The notes beneath the pieces were generated by a model that saw only the letters and a program-made list of their open reading frames with translations, searched no databases and was not told the DNA's origin. Made by a program: the position numbers and the translations under genes. 64,000 bases of DNA from Gonium pectorale (Eukaryota; Chlorophyta; Chlorophyceae; Chlamydomonadales; Volvocaceae): the NCBI GenBank assembly GCA_001584585.1, contig LSYV01000005.1, positions 3,751,000 to 3,814,999 of the forward strand, read 5' to 3'. Within the stretch, counting starts at the first letter, position 1. The number at the start of each line of letters is the position of its first letter. Shown one piece after another: positions 11,749 through 63,648 of this stretch.

Positions 11749-14700
11749 TCACGACCCCCCTGCCTGCTCGCGGCGCCCTGCCGCGCACTCGGCCTTGTGG
11801 CCTGCCCGCCAGTGCGCCACCTGGCAGCCACGCCCGCAGTACCAGGCGCAGCCGCAGCCGCCGCACTTGCTCAGCGCCTCCTCATCCTGCAGCACCGCCT
11901 CGCTGCGGCCCGCCAAGTTGATGCACGCGGGGTGCGAGCAGACCCGCAGCGCGCCGGCCGCCGCCTCGAGGGCTGACGGCGACAGGACCCCAAAGGCGGC
12001 GTGCGTGGCGGCGGTCACGTTGCTCAGGGCGGCGCAGCGAGGGCCGCCGTCTCCCGCCATGGCAGCCGGCTGGAACATGGTTGCCAAGTCAGGTCCATCT
12101 GCAATCTGCAGGCTGGTGGAGAAGCGGAATCCCTCCAGCCCGCTCACCATGGTCGTGAGGTACATGCGCAGCTCAACGTCGGCAAGCGCGCACGGCGACA
12201 TCCGGGCAAACCTGACCAGGGAGGCGGAGCTCCATGGCGAGCTCGCCGGCAGCAGCGCGTCGCTGCTGCTGCTGCCAGCAGCGCCGCCGTCGCCGCCATC
12301 GCGGCGGCGGCTGGGTGGTTTCCTGCCCAAGAGCACGGCGCCCATGGCCGCAGGGAAAGCAAGGGCCGCCGCCCGCAGGCAATCGGCGATCAGCAGCAGC
12401 TCCCGGTGCGTTTGACAGCCGGTCCCGTCGCACGCCCTCGGGTGGTGCAGTGACGTGCTCAGCAGGTTGCCCAGCAGTCCCAACACGTCGACGTCGCACA
12501 GCAGCAGCCGCTGCCAGGCGGCTGCCTCCGCGGCCGTGTCGCTGTGCGGCAGCGTGGGAGCGCGCAGCAATATGAGGAGCCAGTTGAGCATGTCCACACG
12601 GGCCAGGCGGGTAGCGATCTGCGTCACAGGGTCCCAGCGCTGCACGCGCGCGGCCCGGGCCACCGCCGGCAGCCAGCGGTGCAGCGCCAGGGAGGCCTGC
12701 TGCTGCAGCTGCGCGGCCGCCCCGGCCCCCCCGCCCGTCTCGGGCGCGAGCGCCGCGCGCAGGAGGTCGGCGGCACTCGGGAGCGCGTCCATCAGCACAC
12801 CCACGACGCTCCACATGACCGCGTGCTGAGCGCTGCTCGTGCCACCCGCGACGCCCCCACCGCTGCTGGCCGCGGTACCGGCGGCCCCGCATGCGGGCTC
12901 CAGGGCCTCCACCGCATCGACGCAGCGGTGCAGGAGCTTGCCCAGCGTCACCACCAGCGCCGCCACCTGACGCTGCGGGCCAAAGGCCAACAGCTGCTGC
13001 GCGAAGCGCTTGTGGCGAGGGCTCGCGGCTGGGGCCTTTTGTGGCTGGGACCCCGCCACTACCTCGACCTGCAGCAGCCCGTGCAGCAGCCCGAGGCCGG
13101 CGGTCTGCAAATCACCGGCCGCGGCGGTGCGGCGCAGGGTGGCCTCCATGGCGGGCACGAGCCCAGCGGACAGCGCCGTCGCCAGGGCTGCGGATGGCTG
13201 GGGCGGCAGCACATCTGCAAACGGTGTCCGGGCAGGGCAGGAGTAGGGGTCAAGCTCGTGGAGTGTGAAACGCAGGACGGAGCAGCACTGTTGAACTATC
13301 CAGTCAGTGCTCTTTGTCGTGTTCGGTGTTCTTGGTGCTCACACTTCGGGAAGACGTACCATGGGACTTAGCAAGTGGCACGCACTGCCGTACACTACAT
13401 GCCCGGTACAAGCCCACCGTGATCAGATATTGCCCAAGCAAGCCCATTACAGCGAGACGACCGAACTGGGACATCCGACAGTGACTGAAGAGTCGCTATG
13501 CTTGTGATGCTTGAAGCACCCGGCGCTAATCTGGTAACAACGTTGCGCCGTCACACCGTTCCGGTTCATCCCCAGTCCGGGAACAAGGCGCGCACACAGC
13601 CTTACTGCCTCCTGACGGACTGCCCGAACTCCGAAATAAATCCGGTCAACACCCTGCACCCCGGCACTTCCAGACCTACCGGGCCAGGCCTCGGCTGGGA
13701 TGCGCAGCAGCGCCAGGAAGGTGTCCCTGAGCACGTTGATGGGCACAAATCCAGTCGGCACTGGCAGATCCAGCGCCTCGAGCGCAGCGAGCCACCACCG
13801 CAGCCAAGCTGCCTCAGGCGCGACCGCCGCCGGATTGCCTACCGTGCGTTCCTCCAGCAGGCCCCGTGCGGCGTTCAGCGACCTCACAGCGACGTGCCAG
13901 GCAGGTATCGGCCGTAACCGCAGCGAAAGCTGCGGCTGCGGCGCCTTCCGTGGTGGTGCGTCCGCTGCGGCGCTGGCAGCAGCTGCATCGCGACTCGACC
14001 TGACTGCGAAGTCCACGACTTGGAGGCACAGCTGGAAGCTGGCACGCTGCGTCAGTGGTGAGTCGCGCGGCCATTCCAGGGCGACTGCGCCCACCGCGCT
14101 GCTGTCCCCGTTGCCCATAAGGGGGCCCCGCCCCCTCGAGGCCGCCTCCCGCCGCAGCCTACAGTCTTGCATCAGGAGTTCAACCATCTGGTTCAAGTGC
14201 TTGAAGGGCGTCTCGTCCAGCAGCCGCACGAAGCAGCTGCCATTGCCATGGCCTCTATGAAAAACCCGAGCTCCGTCTTCTGGGCATGCCCCTTTTGCTG
14301 CTGCCGGCAGCAAACGGAGGACGACTTGGTTGTCGCCCACACGGTCGTCCCTCCCAATAACCGGCGTCCCAGCGGCCAGCTGTGGTGACAGCCCGTACAA
14401 GCCGATACTGGAGACGCCCACCGTGCTGCTCACGCCTACCCCGGCTGCGTCGCTTGCTGCAGCCGCGGCCGTAACCTCGCCCACGTCCACCCCGCCACCG
14501 GCCGCGGCCAGCGAAGCCACCGCTTGCGTCAGTATCACGTACTGCACGCATGTGCCGAAGGGCGTTCCTGTTGAGGCCTGAGGGCAGAGTGCCGCCGTCC
14601 CAGCAGAGTCGCTGTCAAGGCACGTGGGCCAGTTGTCCATCAGCTCGGACGCCACCTGGACGATTTTGAGGTAGGAGTCCGTGCGTGCGCCGTTGCTGTT

Positions 14701-24602: not shown

Positions 24603-27600
24603 ATGTCGTCGCTTGCCATACATGGGCACCCTATCGTTGGAGGCTTGACCTCAACTTCTGGTACGCGGCCTGTTGTTCCTCGCGCCGCACCAGCGCGTGT
24701 TGCGGCCGCGAGGCCACTGGACGCGCTGCGCACTCCTTCTGGCTCGCCCAATAAGCAACAGCAGCGGGCCTCATCGCTTGTAACTATGGCGACGGCGGGG
24801 CCCAGCAGTGAAAAGCAGACAGTGGAAGTTGGCATCGCGGAGTTGCGGACTCTGTGCACCAAAGCACTGAAGACGCTTGGGTACAAGCAGGAAGAAATCG
24901 ACATCCTCAACGACGTGAGTCGCAGTGCCAATTGGGCCGGGGCCGAGGTCGAGCACGGGAGCAGCGCCGGCACGAGAGCCCTCGTTGCCCCCCACGTTCG
25001 CAGGTCCTGTTCTACGCCCAGTTGCGCGATAACAACCAGGGTATCATCAAAATCACGTCTGGTGGCCTCAACAAATCCCCGTCGGCCCGCCCGCCCGTCA
25101 TTGAGAAGGAGACCCGCCTGTCGGCACTCATCAATGGCAACAACAGCGCCGGCATGCTGGTCCTCCACAAGGCCACCCAGATGGCCATAGAACGTGCCAA
25201 GTCCCAGGGATTTGGTATCGTGGGCACCAACCACACGCCCAGCAGCACGGGTGCCCTAGGGTAAGTGGCAGTTGATGCCCAGGGGAAACTCCATGCCAAC
25301 CACCCAGCCAGTCCACTAGCCGGCCCAGGTAACGGGTTTGCCGTCTGCAGCCCTCTGCACGCCCTTTGGGTAATCATGCCCGCAGTTGAGTGGCCATCAC
25401 GCCTGCCACTTGCAGCGTTGCGCAACCTTCTTCAGGTGCCGCAAACCAACTCCTATGACCCATTTCCTAAACATCCCGCACTCATTCTCCGTTGATCTCC
25501 AACGTACAATTTTCCAGCTACTACGTGGACCTGATCTCTCGCGAGGGCCTCATCGGCATCGTGCTGGCGCAGTCGCCCGAATTTGTGGCGCCCCACGGGG
25601 CCAAGCAGCCCATCTTCGGGACCAACCCCATCGGGATCTCCATCCCCGCCCAGGTGCGCAGCTGAAGTCACTGTCCGCAACATGTCGAGAGTGGTTCATG
25701 CCACCGATGCGCGTGGTGTGCCTGAGGGACTGCCCTTGCCCGCCCCATCGGCTCGCCTTTCGCGTGGGTATCGAGTACCACGCAAAGCCCCCGGGCCTGG
25801 GTCCCGGTGACAACGTCTTCCGCAGGAGGGTGCCGTGACCATGGACATGGCCACCTCTGCGTACGCGTGGTTCGGCCTGCTGGAGGCCAAGGCGGCCGGG
25901 CGGCCCATCCCGGGCGACGTGGCCATGAACGCGGCGGGGCAGGCCACCACCGACCCCAACGAGGTGCTCCAAGGAGGGGCCATCCGCGTCTTCGACCGCT
26001 CCTACAAGGTGCGGAGTGGGCCGTGGCCTGGGGACCCGCCCTGATTGAGCTGCTTCATGGGGGAAGGGCGCATCGTTAAGAAACGCGCGTCCTCTCAAGC
26101 CCAGTATGGCATATGTTAACCGCCTTGGATGCGCTATCCCAGGATAGGGGACGCCATTGCACAGAACCGCCACAACCGCTATTCCCTTGGATTCTTCACG
26201 GGGCAGGGACGCGCGGGACGAGTCGTGTGAGGGTCCGCCCGCCAGTGTAGCTCACTCTGGGTGGGGAACGGAAGAAAGGTGGAGCATCATGTATAGCACG
26301 CAACCTGATGACACCACGTAATGGAACCGCTTCCCCCACTACCTTCTGCTACTCGGTCCCCGGGTCCCTAGGGCAGCAACCTGGCGCTGATGGTTGAGCT
26401 GCTGGCCGGTCCCCTGGTGGGCGCCGCGGTCGCCGACAAGCTGGCGGAGCGCAATTGGGGCAACCTGGTACTGGCGCTGGACCCGGGGCTGCTGGGCGAG
26501 CCGGAGGCGCTCAAGCAGCGGGTGCAGGTGGGGGCCGCTCTGGAGGAGATAGGGGGTTCAAGGGGTGAAAGACGCATATTTCTTGAGGAGCCGCCGGAGA
26601 ATTTTCCCGTGAGGGCAGAATCTGGAAAACAGGAGATGGATGGTGTCAAGCTACGAGGGGGGGGGGCGATGGGGGCGCGACCGGACGCCACATGCGGGTC
26701 TTGGTAGGCGGTGGCGCACAGGCCGGGGGCTGCGGGCGAGGGGCACAGGACACCCGGTCCTCGCGGCTGAGTGAGGGCAGAGTGGGGTGGGCCAAGTATG
26801 AGGGGGGCGTTGTGAGGGTGACGGAGTGCTTCCGTGTGCGTGGAACCTGGGCGAGGCAAACTGGCCGTCGCCACAGCGCCTTCGGCTAGCCTGGGAGGCT
26901 GGACAAGGCCAAAAGCGACCACCGTTGTCCCCGAAACGGGTTGGTTGCATTTGCGTTGCGCCGACCCGCTTATTATGTCTCTTGCCTGCCTGCCTCGGCC
27001 CATCCCAGGTGGTTTTGGACCGTGTCCGCGGCGCTGAGCGGCTGCCCGGGGTTGAGGAGATCCTGCTGCCCGGGGAGCGGGGCAACCGGAAAGCCAACTC
27101 ACGCCTGGCCGCAGGTGGGTCGCTGGGTCAGCTTGGGGCTTGGCGTGCGCTACAACGTTAACTTGGGTTGACGACAGAGCCGCCAGGTTGCAGAGGTGGG
27201 AGTCAAGGATGGTATTGCTGCGGAGCGGCTGCCAGGCTGCTGATTGCGCGGGTGGCTTGGGAACCGGCGAGCCCAGCGTCCCGCTCATGCTGTACCGCGG
27301 CAACTTCGTCTATGGGTGGCGTCCCGAGTCCAAAACGGGGCCTACACCTCGTCATACGGTGCTGTCGCACCCAGGGAGCGCAGTCTCTCCATGGCCGTAG
27401 TAAAGAGGCGCGGACCATGAACCACTGCGTTCGTGTGCAGGTGTGATGCCGCTGGAGGTGAACCTGCTCACGCAGCTGCGCGCCATGGCGGCGCAGTACG
27501 ACGCGGCCGGTTCGCCGCCCGCCTCGCCCGCCAAGCTCGCAGTGGCCACGCGGCTGGTGCACCCCAAGACCAAGGTACGCCTGGAATCCGGGACGGATCG

Positions 27601-30554
27601 GACTGAGCCGGCGCCGGGGCCGGCAGCTTCAGGCTTAGTCCAGCAGTCTGTGGCTCGTCGTTATAGGGCGTTCTGCCGCTATTGATGAAGCGGGCCTGCA
27701 GCGCGTGGCCGCGACTGGGGCAGCCCTGTATTGTGTCCCACCCGCCCGCGGCCCGATTCTAGCCCAGCTTGGGCCCAACAAGCTATGGCCCATGGCGCCA
27801 TGGGCTGTACCGGTAATGGTGACGCTGACGCAGCTCCCGCTCGTAACGCCCGCTGGGCCCCTGCCTTGCGCTCTCGCGGCGCCGCCCCCAGGTGGTGGAC
27901 CCCTACGGCGGCTCCATGCCGCCGCTGTGGCAGACCGCCACCTTCGCGCAGCCCAGCGCGACCACCTTCGGCGAGTACGACTACACGCGCAGGTGCGGCC
28001 TCGCACGCGGCGGCGCACGTTCGCGGCACACCTTCGACCTGCTGTGTGGGCGTGCACACCGTTTGTTGCAGACCTGCAAGCAGAACGTCACTCGGGGCTG
28101 GTGCTCGCCGTATGCTTACTGTGTGTCCTTATTGAACATGCCGCAGCGGCAACCCCACGCGCACAATGCTGGAGGAGCAGTTTGCGGCACTGGAGGGCGG
28201 CGATCGCGCCTTCGCCTTTACCAGTGGTATGGCGGCGCTGGCGGCGGTGGCTAAGCTGGTGGCCACGGGCGAGCACATTGTGGCGGGAGAGGACATCTAC
28301 GGGGGGACCAGCAGGCTGCTGTCGCAGGTAGTGCCGTCGGCAGGCGTCAGCGTCACCAACGTCGACATGACGAACTTGGAGTGAGTGCGGCTGGGGCAAG
28401 TGGGAAGAATGGGGTGGGGGTTCGGCAGCTCCGGCGGCTGTTTCCTGGGCGCCTGGCATGAGGGTGAGCTTTCAGTCCAGTCCAGGCAAGCCATCAATGC
28501 AGGAAAGCTAGGATGGGTACTTCCCAGTGGTACGCGAGAAGGAAATAGACGACCCGTGGACCTTAGGTGAATGTGCCGTAGATGCAATGCCGCAACTGCC
28601 CGTAACTTGAAGCTTCATCCCCACGCGCTCACGTCCCTCACTGTGGCCCCTCTTTGACTTGATTCATGCTCCAGGGCCGTCCGCGCCGCCATCCAGCCGG
28701 GCCGCACCAAGCTGGTGATTGTCGAGTCGCCCACCAACCCGCGCATGCAGGTGAGGGTGGGAGTGTCGCCGCTTAGTTACTTGGGCAAGGAGATTACCAC
28801 GGAAGGGCTGTGGGGGGGCCCAGGCGGTTACAGGGCGCAAGCGCCCGGGCCGTCGTCCGTGCTTCGGTTGCATACTGCTCCACTCCATACTGCCGATGTC
28901 GGTGGAAGTGGCCAAAATCGGGCGTGTAGCATCGAATGGCCGCCGCGCCCCACGCCCTGCTTCGTTGTGGCCGCCTGTCTTGCATGGAACTTCCTCGTGC
29001 ACTCTATGGCTGAGCCTTGTCCTCCTGCGTCCCCTCCCCTCCTCAACCACGCCGCTGGCACTCAGCTCGTGCTTTCTTCATTCCCTTCCCCTGCAACTAC
29101 CCCCCGCACCCGCCCCCCCCCCTAACCAGGTGTGCGACATTGCGGCCATCGCCTCCATGGCCCGTGCCGCGGGCGCCATCACGTGCGTGGACAACTCAAT
29201 CATGGCGCCCGTCTTCCAGCGCCCGCTGGACCTGGGGGCCGACATCTGCATGACGTCCGGCACTAAGTTCGTGGGTGGCCACGGTGACGTGACGCTGGGG
29301 CTGCTGACGGTCAAGGGCGAGGAGCTGGCCAAGCGGGTCTACTTCCTGCAGGTCTGGGGACTGCGGGTTTGTGGGGGCGGGGATTGGAAGGGATTGAGCG
29401 CGGGGGAGAGAAGCGACGAAGGAGGCGGGATAACCGCTGAAGAGATTTCCCGTCTCCTGTGGGTCTGGTGCTGCGGCAAGGTGGTTCGTGGCCCCTTCTG
29501 ATCTCCGCCCTTTCCCTCCCGTGCCACGGCCCCGGTCCCCCAGAATGCCGAGGGCGCCGGCCTGGCCCCCTTCGACTGCTGGCTGGCGCTGCGCGGCCTC
29601 AAGACCATGGCCCTGCGCATGGAGCGCTCGGCGGAGAATGCTGCCAAGCTGGCGACCTTCCTGTCGGGCCACCCCCTGGTGAAGAAGGTTAACTACCCAG
29701 GCCTGCCCAGCGACCCCGGTTACGCGCTGCACCGGCGCCAGGCCACCAGCGGCGGCTCGCTGCTCAGCTTCGAGACGGGCAGTGTGGAAGCCAGCAAGGT
29801 CAGCAGCGGGGGCGCGGATGTTGCGCAGAAAGCGTAACAGTGGCGCGGGAAAGGGGCGTGGGCGGCGCGGAGGGATGACGCGTGACCTGCGCGCGACCAC
29901 GTACCCCGCCCTTCGCGTATCTTGCCATCGCGCAGGGGCCCAAACTTTCTTGAAGGCACCATTGCCATTGCGGCCGCTACTTTGCACCCGCCCGGCCTTT
30001 GTGACAACGCCTTCCAACCCAATGATCCCCCACCCACTACCCACCCGCGCCGATAGATTATCGTCGAGGCCACCCAGCTGTACAAGGTGACCGTCTCGTT
30101 CGGCAACGTCAACTCGCTCATCAGCCTGCCCTGCTACATGAGCCATGCCTCCATCCCCGCCGACGTGCGCGCCGCGCGGGGCCTGCCCGACGACCTGGTG
30201 CGCATCTCCACCGGCATCGAGGACGCGAACGACCTCATCGCCGACCTGGGCCAGGCCCTGTCGCTCGCCATGGAGAAGACTGGTTTCAACAAGGCTCAGC
30301 AGCAGCCCGCCTCCTCGCACGCCGGCAACGGGAGCGGCGCGGGCGGCAGCACAACGTACAGCTTCGGAACGGGGAGCAACGGCAACGGTAACGGTCACGC
30401 GTCGACCGCGAAAGCGAACGGGAGCGGGGTGGGGCCCGGTTCGGCAAGTGAGCGGGAGCTGCAGCTTCTGGAGCGGATCCGCAGTCTGGAGAAGCAGCTG
30501 CAGGGGAGAGGGCAGGAACAAGGCGTGCAGGCGGGCCACGCGCACAGCCTCTGA
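24603..30554 (+). CDS. Ldh_2-family dehydrogenase fused to cystathionine beta-lyase, plastid-type
   Basis: Thirteen exons join in frame to 889 residues: 24603-24914, 25004-25260, 25518-25653, 25826-26008, 26372-26527, 27009-27114, 27441-27574, 27892-27992, 28147-28380, 28675-28750, 29130-29351, 29544-29798, 30057-30554. Residues 1-60 look like a transit peptide. About 75-400 form a malate/L-lactate dehydrogenase (Ldh_2) domain: LINGNNSAGMLVL, GIVGTNH, FGTNPIGISIP, DMATSAYAWFG, SNLALMVELLAG. Exon 7 completes it (GVMPLEVNLLTQLRAMA) and continues without a stop into LVHPKTK and the lyase domain (about 425-800): DPYGGSMPPLWQTATF, YDYTRSGNPTR, VDNSIMAP, SGTKFVGGHGDV with the PLP lysine near residue 611, and LPCYMSHASIPA, VRISTGIEDANDLI. 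Cystathionine beta-lyase cleaves cystathionine to homocysteine, pyruvate and ammonia in methionine synthesis. A Gly/Asn/Ser tail ends in a short coiled coil. Two separate genes remain possible. Confidence 0.85.
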
Positions 30555-31083: not shown

Positions 31084-31088
31084 TGTAA
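31084..31088 (+). terminator. TGTAA polyadenylation signal for the fusion gene
   Basis: TGTAA 530 bases after the TGA at 30552-30554. No TGTAA serving an upstream dehydrogenase-only transcript was seen between 27243 and 27441. Confidence 0.55.
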
Positions 31089-59292: not shown

Positions 59293-62200
59293 ATGTCGCA
59301 CGCAGGTCCCGGGCTACTGACTACCGGTACCGAACCCCACATAGCGTCACAGTGCCAGTCCCTCAGCGAAGTGCTCGATGAGCTGCTGCGGCTGGACGAT
59401 GACAGTGAGGCCCCCGGACAGCAGGACTGCAGCGCCGGCGGTGTCGAGCTGTTTACAGGTGAAGCGGAGCGGCAGCAGCTGACGCCACATGCGCAGGAGC
59501 CGCTCGCGTCAGCCGCTCCTGCCTCCCTTGAGCACTCGCGCGATGCGACACCGTCGTCTCAGAGCCGACAGGGCGCTTGCAATACCTTGGATCACTCACT
59601 GACTAGTGCTGCGACCGACTGGTCGTGGTGGTGGGAGCAAGCATCGACAACGCTGGCTGGGGCCGGCTCTGCAGGCGAGGCACAGACGCTTGGAGTTGAC
59701 AGCACCTCCACCGCCGGCGGCGCCACCATCCACGCCCATGCACTGAGGTCCGATAACGGCGCAGGCGGCCCTAGCGATGGTGCACCTACGGTTGGCTGCG
59801 GCTTCGACACGGTGCACGCTGCTCAGCTCCGTGCAGGCAGCAGTACACTACAAGACCAGGTGGACAGCAACATCGCCGCACCGCCGACAGCGAAGCAAGT
59901 GGCGCCTCCAGTCCCACCCAGCCAAGTCCCACCCAGCCACCCCATGGCGGGGGCGCCCTGCGGCCTGACGCACCCGGGGTACGCCCAGGGCGGCTACCTG
60001 CGCCGCCCGTATGCGCTGCAGCTGGCGTGGGCAGCCGCCGTGTGGCGCCTCAGCGGGGAGTTCCCCTACCCAGCCGTGCTGCAGCAGCGCCCGCCACTGC
60101 TGCAGGAGGGCGAGATCTTCTGGACGGCCAAGGCGGAGGCGGAGGCGCTGCTCCCACTGATGCTGCCAGATGCATGGCTAGCGGAGCTGGGCAGCGGCGA
60201 GGGCGAGCTGGCCTGCGAGCAGGGTAGGCGGGCTGGTGTGGAGGGGCAGGGCGAGGTAGGGCATCCGAGGCGGGGCACCACGGCGTGTGGAAGGCGTTCT
60301 GGCGGCACGCGGCCTGGCGAGGAGTGGAGCAGAGGCTGGGCCTGGGGGCGACGCACCTCGGGGGGCGGGGAGCATGTTCCCGGCGGTAGTCACGATGCCA
60401 GCGCCCGTCGATTGCCTGCTGCCACCCAAGTGCCCCGATGGCGTCGCCGCAACAGTAGCAGTAGCCATTCACCCTCTGCACCAAGCCGCCGGCACTGCCT
60501 CCTATTATGCGGCTATCCCCTGACTCAGCGCTCCCCGCAACTGGACCTGGTTCGGATGCCATTCTCGATCCGTCCAACTGAACAGGCGCAGGACTTGAGC
60601 AGACTGAGCCCCTCATGCAGCTGCTCGGCAGGCCCCGCTGCATGTACCTCCTGCTGGGGTTCCGTATAACGGCTGGGAGCGCCGAACGGCTGGTTGCGCT
60701 GCCGTCTCTCAGAGAGTGCACTTCGGCCTTCGAGAGGCGGCACGCGCCCGCGACTGCCAGCGTGCTCACCGTCGGTGGGTGGAGGGGCCGCGCGGAGGTT
60801 GGTCGGCAACGGTACAGGCTCCAGAGAGGGGCATGACATGGCATTCTGCTCACTCTGCTCGCAATGTCTATACACGTGCAGCTCCGTTTCGATGCCTCCC
60901 TGTCAATCGGCTGGACGCGCACTTGCGCTCTGAGTGTGCCGCCTCAAGAGCGCCCTTTCCCCGGGGTCCACCATGGTCATTCTTCCTCTCGGCCTCCTTC
61001 CATGCGTGAGCCAGCGCACTCGCCCCCCCTCCCCCTCCTCCCGGCACATACACATGCACCCACGCACCCATGCGCCATGCACCCTGCCACGCTTCCTTGC
61101 CTTGCTCGCTCGCCGGCCCTGCGTTGCACCCCGGTGACCCCTTGTGTGTGGGGCGCTCCGGCACGGCCGTGTTGTGGGGAACCGCTAGTCGGTCCGCACA
61201 CGGCCTGCGCCCCCCTGCCCCCTGTCTGCCCGTACCCGTCGTACCGCCTGCCCGCATGTTCTCCGTCCCGCCCCGTTCTTTCGCCCTTCTCCCGCTAGCT
61301 AGGAACGGGCTCAGTGTGGTGCGCCCTGCTCTGTGCTGCTTTGCCTGCCTCGCTCCACATGCTTCACCGCCATCGTCACTAACTCCCTCTTTCCGCCGCC
61401 GTCGCCGCCCTGCCACCCGCCCCCGTAGGTCAGTACGCAACGGTGTCTGGGCTAGTGTTGTTTGGAACGTCCGTCTGGGCAGACTCGCGCTCGCGAGTCC
61501 GTGCTGTGCCAGTCTGTTCGCGTGTTGGTTCGGGCGGGCGGGCCGGGATTCCAGCTCCTCTCGCCTCTGTCTCCACACATTCACTCGGGACAGGTACGCT
61601 GCCGCGACGTTCGGTTGTTGCTGACGATACGGTTTCACAGGCTGACAACCACTACACCAAGACCGCCACTAAGACAGTCGTCTGCAACTCGGTGTCAGCA
61701 ACGCGAACCGTTTCCCTTCTTTTCCGCCCCTCCACCACAGGCGCCAGGGCGCTCACCAAGCACACGCACCGCGACCTGCGTGGCGAGTGGTGGCCTCGCA
61801 TGAGCGGCAGCGAGGCGGCCAAGAACGCGCTGGCCCGCGGGTCGCTGAGCCGGCTGCTGGGCGAGGCGCTGTGGCTCAACGTCCACCAGCTGCCACCCTT
61901 CAGCGCACCCAAGTACGTGCTGGAGGTGCGCAACCCGCAGGTGAGCCTGGCCCGTCGGCGGGGACTGGGTTGCGTCCGTGTGAGGGCCTCCGGCGNNNNN
62001 NNNNNNNNNNNNNNNGGCCGAGTGGCCGAGTCGAGGGTGAACCCCCGCCGCTCCGCCCGCACACCGATACCCGCACCCTGCCTACAGCGCCACCCTTCCC
62101 GCCCCCCCGTGTTGGTTCGGGCGGGCGGGCCGGGAGTTCCAGCTCCTCTCGCCTCTGTCTCCACACATTCACTCAGGACAGGTACGCTGCCGCGACGTTC

Positions 62201-63648
62201 GGTTGTTGCTGACGATACGGTTTCACAGGCTGACAACCACTACACCAAGACCGCCACTAAGACAGTCGTCTGCAACTCGGTGTCAGCAACGCGAACCGTT
62301 TCCCTTCTTTTCCGCCCCTCCACCACAGGCGCCAGGGCGCTCACCAAGCACACGCACCGCGACCTGCGTGGCGAGTGGTGGCCTCGCATGAGCGGCAGCG
62401 AGGCGGCCAAGAACGCGCTGGCCCGCGGGTCGCTGAGCCGGCTGCTGGGCGAGGCGCTGTGGCTCAACGTCCACCAGCTGCCACCCTTCAGCGCACCCAA
62501 GTACGTGCTGGAGGTGCGCAACCCGCAGGTGAGCCTGGCCCGTCGGCGGGGACTGGGTTGCGTCCGTGTGAGGGCCTCCGGCGATGGATGGGTTGAGCGC
62601 ACCCGGTACGGGCTGGTTGAGGACCAATGGGTGTTGGCATGGCGGCTTCTTGGGGGCCTCGGTGAGGGCTGGTAGGGGCCAGGTGCGCAGCGCGCAGCTG
62701 GTTGGGGACCGACAAGGGCCTTGGTGTAGTGGTTTGCATCACGCGTTGGGATCGCCTGGCCCTGCAAGGAGCCTGCGCGCGAGGATGTGCACCAGCGCGA
62801 GTGCCCGATAGGAAGCTTCCGCAGGTTCAGGCTTGTGGCGAAGGCCGGGTGAGGGCTTACTGCATGAGGGCTCGGGGCTGGACGATAGGCGACGGGGGCG
62901 GTACCGTCGCTGCATATGACATGCCCAGCGATGTACGGTAGTATGGAAGATATGTGCCAAGCATTGAGGACTGCATGATGACATTGATGAGCATGTGACG
63001 ACCTTGAGGGCTTGGGGAGCGCTAACCGCGGCATAATCAGCCGGGCGTTGCGTGAGTGGGAGCAACACTGGCCTTGCTGCTACAATCTGCTGAAGTGCAT
63101 CCCACAAAGTTCAGAGAAGTTCAGCTCGCGCCGGGCCTTAACGCACAATACACCCTACTGTAATAGGAGCCCTACATTTGGGGGGAGTTTATGCCCCGGA
63201 TATGAAGCTCGTCAAGGTTCGCGGTGATAACAGAAGGGATGAGTTGCTCAAGGTTCGTAGCCGCCGTTCAAGGCAACCCATCTCCCTTCTTTGACGCATC
63301 AATCCGAAGCGCCGTGCCTTCTTTGCGAACCCACCACCAATGATGATCCCTCCCGTGTCTGGGCAGGGGTATGGGGCGCGCTGGGCAATCGAGGAGCCTG
63401 CATTGTCCGCTGGGCCGGCTACCAGCGGCCTCGGCGCCGCGGTCATTCTCCCCTGCGACGCAAACGATGGCACAGACCCGAGCGGAACGCTGGGCCCACT
63501 TGGATCTACAGATGAGCAACAGGGGTGTGGGTCAACAAGAACGGAGACTTTGGTGCCAGCATGTCCTCATCCCCGTGCGTCCATCCTCTTCCGGGGCTTC
63601 CTGGAGCCCCAGATGGAGGGCGGGCACGAGGCGGGGTGGCGTCACTAG
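59293..63648 (+). CDS. Conserved protein of unknown function with a GYGARW...FRGFLEPQ...WRH ending
   Basis: Best model: exons 59293-60223, 61741-61940 (or its copy at 62329-62528) and 63367-63648, in phases 1 and 0, giving 470 residues. The first 210 residues are Ser/Ala/Thr-rich and probably disordered. A helical domain follows (LRRPYALQLAWAAAVWRLSG, EIFWTAKAEAEALLPLMLPD), then the middle exon (RDLRGEWWPRMSGSEAAKNA, SRLLGEALWLNVHQLPPF, YVLEVRNPQ) and a last exon starting GYGARWAIEEPA and ending FRGFLEPQMEGGHEAGWRH. That ending resembles an uncharacterised eukaryotic family I cannot name with certainty. The middle exon lies next to an assembly gap and is duplicated. Including both copies would break the frame, because the exon enters in phase 1 and leaves in phase 0. 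The 1.5-kb first intron is unusually long for this window and could hide another exon. Confidence 0.7.
61522..61995 (+). repeat. Duplicated segment, copy 1 (abuts the gap)
   Basis: Almost identical to 62109-62583, including intron sequence. The differences I see are one inserted G and one A/G change near the left end. The match stops exactly at the gap. Confidence 0.93.
61996..62015. other. Assembly gap of 20 Ns
   Basis: Second placeholder-sized gap, lying between the two copies of the duplicated segment. Confidence 0.98.
62109..62583 (+). repeat. Duplicated segment, copy 2
   Basis: Same as 61522-61995, shifted by 587-588 bases. It contains a full second copy of the 200-base middle exon (62329-62528) with its acceptor and donor. 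Confidence 0.93.

Follow-up and report, generated by a model that had tools for sequence, protein, structure and literature searches.

A Probable Fusion of Plant-Type Cystathionine β-Lyase with an Ldh_2-Derived Domain Lacking Both Catalytic Histidines in Gonium pectorale

Gene Structure

The window, that is, the whole 64,000-nucleotide stretch of Gonium pectorale DNA analyzed here, has a GC fraction of 0.631 and belongs to an assembly of 128.9 Mb in 352 contigs. On its plus strand lies a predicted gene (Table 1) that combines (i) a transit-peptide-like N-terminus, (ii) an Ldh_2 domain, (iii) a cystathionine β-lyase (CBL) domain, and (iv) a low-complexity tail. The 13 exons that were located and joined amount to 2670 nt and to an open frame of 889 codons, read from ATG to TGA without an internal stop, which bears out a sequence-only reading that had them sum to a whole number of codons. 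All 12 introns of the fused gene start with GT and end with AG, and the 326 bases of intron 6 are ordinary within this gene, where introns range from 89 to 481 bases.

The first 65 residues include a single acidic one, carry a net charge of +6, and are 66% A, R, S, T, P, or V, a composition that resembles a transit peptide. The C-terminal tail is enriched in Gly, Ser, Asn, and Ala and includes, close to its end, a short stretch that is charged and helix-like. TGTAA serves as a polyadenylation signal in such algae; the copy found 3′ of the stop codon is a weak signal because about 0.27 per 1000 bases are expected at the window rate (17 in 64,000).

Table 1. Features of the predicted fusion gene, in window coordinates
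Feature	Position	Strand	Basis
Fused gene, entire coding span, 13 exons, 889 aa	24603..30554	+	joined exons, ATG to TGA
Exon 1	24603..24914	+	
Transit-peptide-like N-terminus, aa 1-65	24603..24797	+	composition alone
Ldh_2 domain, aa 78-396, exons 1-7	24834..27478	+	PF02615, 260.1 bits
Exon 2, carries both lost catalytic positions	25004..25260	+	alignment with homologues
Gln116 codon, place of AllD His44	25037..25039	+	alignments
Ser185 codon, place of AllD His116	25244..25246	+	alignments
Exon 3	25518..25653	+	
Exon 4	25826..26008	+	
Exon 5	26372..26527	+	
Exon 6, phase 1 end, near Ldh_2 C-terminal end	27009..27114	+	
Intron 6, between the halves, 326 bases; retention gives an in-frame stop; lacks TGTAA	27115..27440	+	
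Exon 7, aa 384-428: Ldh_2 end, linker, and CBL start	27441..27574	+	
CBL domain, aa 416-792, exons 7-13	27536..30260	+	TIGR01329, 513.3 bits; 1ibj alignment
Exon 8	27892..27992	+	
Exon 9	28147..28380	+	
Exon 10	28675..28750	+	
Exon 11	29130..29351	+	
Lys611 codon, aligned with Lys278 of Arabidopsis CBL	29265..29267	+	1ibj alignment
Exon 12	29544..29798	+	
Exon 13, including stop codon	30057..30554	+	
Low-complexity C-terminal tail, 97 aa, aa 793-889	30261..30551	+	
TGTAA, possible polyadenylation signal, 530 bases 3′ of stop	31084..31088	+	weak

Cystathionine β-Lyase Half

The lyase half matches PF01053 over aa 420-792 (456.2 bits, Pfam) and scores above the cut-off of 487.5 bits of the NCBIfam cystathionine beta-lyase model TIGR01329. 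It resembles Arabidopsis CBL (1ibj), with 236 of 374 aligned residues identical (63%, alignment from aa 416). All 10 active-site or nearby positions checked are also identical, including the counterpart of Lys278, which we take to be the PLP lysine. The algal half thus reads as a complete CBL of plant type whose checked catalytic residues are intact. The two proteins differ in that the algal lyase is preceded by an Ldh_2 domain and followed by the 97-residue tail, whereas the aligned part of the 464-residue 1ibj chain (85-458) leaves no room for an Ldh_2-like domain. Arabidopsis CBL is a homotetramer, and CGS and CBL of plants are reported in chloroplasts only, in the available text of PMC9426629.

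Searches of the assembly found no second CBL and no second Ldh_2 among the best candidates scored, a set that a very divergent copy could escape. PF01053 matches two other places, an intronless gene on C93 and an intron-containing gene on C2. The best NCBIfam match of the C93 gene (L012 3348-4937) is a cystathionine gamma-synthase family model, below its cut-off, and its TIGR01329 score is 290.8 bits versus the cut-off of 487.5. This cystathionine gamma-synthase-like gene has no introns versus the 12 of the lyase gene; the third PF01053 gene, the one on C2, is broken by introns and lies at L013 2639-5700. The viral contigs searched hold no relative of either half, and the genome-contig search returned one weak relative, an Opitutia MAG (27%).

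Ldh_2 Half: Residues Lost and Kept

The Ldh_2 half covers positions 3-332 of the 333-position PF02615 profile, with a score far above the Pfam gathering score of 38.8. It falls short of the cut-offs for L-sulfolactate dehydrogenase (NF040650, 199.1 versus 500 bits) and ureidoglycolate dehydrogenase (TIGR03175, 152.9 versus 496.2 bits). Membership in the L-sulfolactate dehydrogenase-like family of ComC (2x06), AllD (4h8a), DpkA (1wtj), and YiaK (1s20) is evident from the near-full profile match and the non-histidine cofactor residues, but the algal domain lacks both invariant histidines, has a changed substrate pocket, and is fused to a lyase.

At two alignment columns, the alga has Gln116 and Ser185, and 31 of 31 homologues have His. 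These homologues all come from one bacterial phylum and comprise 30 loci plus L014, with L011 excluded as a duplicate of the L014 gene. Both histidines are also present in 2x06, 1v9n, and 4h8a, the three alignments shown of 13 matched sequences. Gln116 takes the place of AllD His44 and Ser185 that of AllD His116, with the same outcome in three alignment modes. A nearby histidine, His181, lies 4 residues from Ser185 and aligns with a different column, in which 7 of 39 homologues have His.

The available text of PMC3527362 describes His44 and His116 as invariant across the family, suggests that His116 acts as the general base, and reports that the AllD variants H116A and R48A are inactive and that H44A retains ∼3% of the wild-type kcat, with no significant change in Km for NAD+ among the mutants. 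Seven of the nine residues mutated in that work differ or are deleted in the alga by the 4h8a alignment: Ser43 is replaced with Asn, His44 with Gln, Arg48 with Lys, His116 with Ser, Asp141 with Pro, and Met251 with Val, and Tyr52 is deleted. Ser140 and Arg259 are unchanged. Conservation of Arg48, Ser140, and Asp141 does not extend to the wider family (PMC3527362, available text), and the Arg48 position is Lys in 6 of the 43 homologues that keep both histidines. The same source names seven conserved cofactor residues in AllD, two of them the histidines; the other five (Thr156, Pro158, Asp174, Lys224, and Gly306) are all kept in the alga. Relative to its homologues, the algal Ldh_2 half also lacks 8-17 residues at two places.

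Given that neither active-site histidine remains and that much of the substrate pocket is lost, the Ldh_2 half most likely does not function as a 2-oxoacid reductase. The proposal of the sequence-only reading that this half reduces or channels the lyase by-product is not supported by these residues. On the other side, AllD H44A has residual kcat, and a divergent enzyme could use other residues. A literature search for Ldh_2 enzymes without the catalytic histidine turned up only another family.

Bacterial Relatives without the Histidines

When plasmid records were searched with the algal domain, the best match was a Paracoccus pantotrophus protein (31.6%) that is also without both histidines. 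The loss as an event confined to the alga was rejected as a settled view, given that close plasmid-borne relatives lack both residues too. Among 52 homologues in total, 43 keep both histidines, 8 lack both, and 1 lacks one, in a sample biased toward a single phylum (31 rows) and toward hand-chosen plasmid-record matches (21 rows). An Ldh family protein of Phaeobacter inhibens (L064) keeps the first histidine and has Asn at the second.

The eight rows without histidines form one clade (100/99) of Alpha- and Betaproteobacteria and one actinomycete, with the genera Paracoccus, Cupriavidus, Paraburkholderia, Polymorphobacter, and Pseudonocardia (loci L059/L067, L068, L070 with two genes, L076, L077, L078, and L079). 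This clade is a branch of bacterial Ldh_2 proteins without either catalytic histidine, called Ldh family oxidoreductases where annotated. Annotated neighbors include AMP-binding proteins, thiolase, LLM flavin oxidoreductases, and acyl-CoA dehydrogenase in some loci; other loci have transporter, lyase, or amidohydrolase genes, and the Paracoccus record is unannotated in this region. Like the algal domain, to which they are 26-33% identical, the clade members have neither histidine; unlike it, they are stand-alone proteins with different residues at the histidine places. Six of the eight have Phe for Gly306 and two of the eight have Arg for Lys224, whereas the alga keeps both. Because such stand-alone proteins exist, the Ldh_2 fold may have a catalytic use without the histidines.

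Support for an origin shared by the alga and this clade depends on sampling. The alga groups with it in trees that include one clade row (97/93) or four (92/88), both with flagged long branches. In a fuller tree with all eight rows, from which 12 of 53 rows were omitted as long branches (five) or near-copies (seven), the best free topology places the alga outside the clade, and the forced grouping is not rejected (p-AU 0.544). Diagnostic columns common to the alga number 14 of 61 for the histidine-less clade, 29 of 139 for a haloarchaeal pair, 13 of 64 for an AllD-like pair, and 10 of 96, 13 of 92, 11 of 100, and 14 of 98 for four other groups; these counts do not decide common origin with the clade. 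Common origin is thus favored under sparse sampling and not under fuller sampling.

No CBL-like gene lies beside bacterial Ldh_2 genes, as judged from ORFs of at least 250 aa in L011 and L014-L044, loci that mostly span 2.6-4 kb. Two haloarchaeal Ldh genes (L073 and L075) are located directly 3′ of UxaA-family hydrolase genes and near sulfate/sulfite exporter genes, a neighborhood that fits sulfolactate breakdown. In L075, a transhydrogenase beta gene lies ∼2.3 kb from the Ldh gene, and in Rhizobium sp. Pop5 (L069 4455-6984), NAD(P) transhydrogenase subunit genes adjoin the Ldh gene.

Exon 7 and the Case for One Protein

Exon 7 is the segment in which the two halves meet. Exon 6 ends and exon 7 begins in phase 1, as had been read from the DNA, with codon 384 made up of one base from the former and two from the latter. 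Also confirmed is that exon 7 ends Ldh_2 and opens CBL: the last Ldh_2 and the first CBL profile positions both fall within aa 384-428, with no stop between them.

The contribution of exon 7 to the Ldh_2 fold was scored with an HMM built from the 27 of 31 bacterial homologues that have the C-terminus. Cut at exon 6, the Ldh_2 half scores 182.8 bits, which rises to 193.7 bits with the start of exon 7, a gain of 10.9 bits. The alternative exon at 27194-27243 gains 2.2 bits (185.0 in all) and retention of intron 6, which introduces an in-frame stop, gains 2.6 (185.4 in all). None of 1000 shuffles (best 192.5) and none of 146 other stretches of the fusion reach 193.7 bits, although the best of the latter, at 193.4, is only slightly lower. 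By this narrow margin, the gain is unlikely to be due to chance. A separate scoring of constructs gave 263.8 bits with exon 7 versus 256.5 for the truncated half, and 256.3-256.6 bits with three other tails, one of which approximates the alternative exon inexactly.

Further reasons favor the fusion. A lyase translated alone from its first in-frame ATG, at 27446, would by composition have no transit-like start, although reports place plant CBL exclusively in chloroplasts. The assembly searches found no other CBL and no other Ldh_2. Since exon 7 carries both the Ldh_2 end and the CBL start, the in-frame fusion proposed in the sequence-only reading is probably real, as the open frame, the two profile matches, and the HMM gain together suggest; the splice from 27114 to 27441 is predicted.

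Proposed Role and Alternatives

We infer that one nuclear gene is expressed as a single plastid-directed protein consisting of a transit peptide, an Ldh_2-derived domain, a short linker, a complete plant-type CBL, and a low-complexity tail. The lyase half is predicted to catalyze the second step of methionine synthesis, in which cystathionine is converted to homocysteine, pyruvate, and ammonia. For the Ldh_2 half, we propose a role in regulating or assembling the lyase, possibly in response to NAD(P)(H). Because Ldh_2 enzymes are oligomers and Arabidopsis CBL forms homotetramers, each half could influence how the other assembles. Taken as a whole, this reading of a plastid CBL with a non-catalytic Ldh_2-derived domain that regulates or scaffolds the lyase is, in our estimate, evenly poised between right and wrong. 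Binding of NAD(P)(H) by the Ldh_2 half is possible on the basis of the kept residues, which may also have been retained for folding only. The more specific idea, in which a non-catalytic, NAD(P)(H)-binding domain in the only CBL found lets the redox state of the chloroplast nucleotide pool gate methionine synthesis, is doubtful.

The halves may instead belong to two genes or to alternative transcripts, such that the Ldh_2-like product ends after exon 6 and a separate lyase starts near exon 7. The exon 6-exon 7 joining is a prediction from sequence, and start codons are available in the form of in-frame ATGs at 27446 and 27485 and of ATGs at 27209 and 27287, which share the lyase frame and run into a stop before exon 7 unless spliced. 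However, the dual content of exon 7, the poorer Ldh_2 end that the alternative exon provides, and the lack of a transit-like start on a separate lyase make this arrangement highly improbable. The absence of TGTAA from intron 6 was dropped as support for the fusion and is given little weight here, as ∼0.1 copies are expected by chance in 326 bases.

Within a single chain, the Ldh_2 half could make the protein bifunctional by reducing the pyruvate or an imine freed by the lyase. The Ldh_2 fold is whole, with its non-histidine cofactor residues kept; moreover, some Ldh_2 enzymes reduce imines, and a protonated imine might need less acid catalysis. Against such an activity stand the loss of both invariant histidines, the deletion of Tyr52, the alterations at Ser43, Arg48, Asp141, and Met251, and the inactivity of AllD H116A and R48A (PMC3527362, available text), and we consider it distinctly unlikely. 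Alternatively, the domain could be a remnant that does no more than carry the transit peptide and connect it with the lyase, with no ligand or regulatory effect. The lost catalytic residues and the 8-17 residues missing at two places agree with such a passive passenger. Nevertheless, the domain retains a 260-bit match to nearly the entire Pfam profile, and its cofactor residues are kept while its substrate residues are mostly altered, a contrast that a passenger need not show; we rate this explanation as rather unlikely. The same combination, a changed catalytic and substrate site next to kept cofactor residues, is what favors the non-catalytic role proposed above over product reduction.

Precedent and Significance

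The nearest precedent is, by analogy, fungal ATP sulfurylase, in which the fused C-terminal APS-kinase domain is regulatory rather than catalytic (PMC2275785, available text). Like the proposed algal protein, it is a sulfur-pathway enzyme with an enzyme-derived regulatory domain; unlike it, it involves other enzymes and the opposite protein end. No homology is claimed, and regulation in the alga is a proposal. The same paper surveys eukaryotic sulfate-assimilation fusions, and its main text contains neither “cystathionine” nor “dehydrogenase”. A literature search on the Ldh_2-CBL pairing or on algal CBL, covering titles and the starts of abstracts with few subscription journals represented, returned none that suggests the pairing. 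Both domains may already appear, uncommented, in the public gene model of a related alga.

If the gene yields one protein, this genome encodes a core methionine-synthesis enzyme solely in the form of a two-domain fusion, and the label “working dehydrogenase” for its N-terminal half would be wrong. The proposed role, if true, would be a further instance of sulfur metabolism recruiting an enzyme fold as a non-catalytic partner and would raise the testable question of whether plastid methionine synthesis responds to NAD(P)H.

Other Features of the Window

A 452-aa open frame lies antisense to exons 11-13 (29199-30554, minus strand) and is probably a by-product of GC-rich coding DNA. Elsewhere in the window, a 529-aa open frame on the minus strand (11752-13338) ends in a MYND zinc finger (35.7 bits), and a 430-aa open frame on the plus strand (61383-62672) gives a weak match to a heavy-metal-associated domain, with a score of 22.9 bits that is below the cut-off of 24.5.
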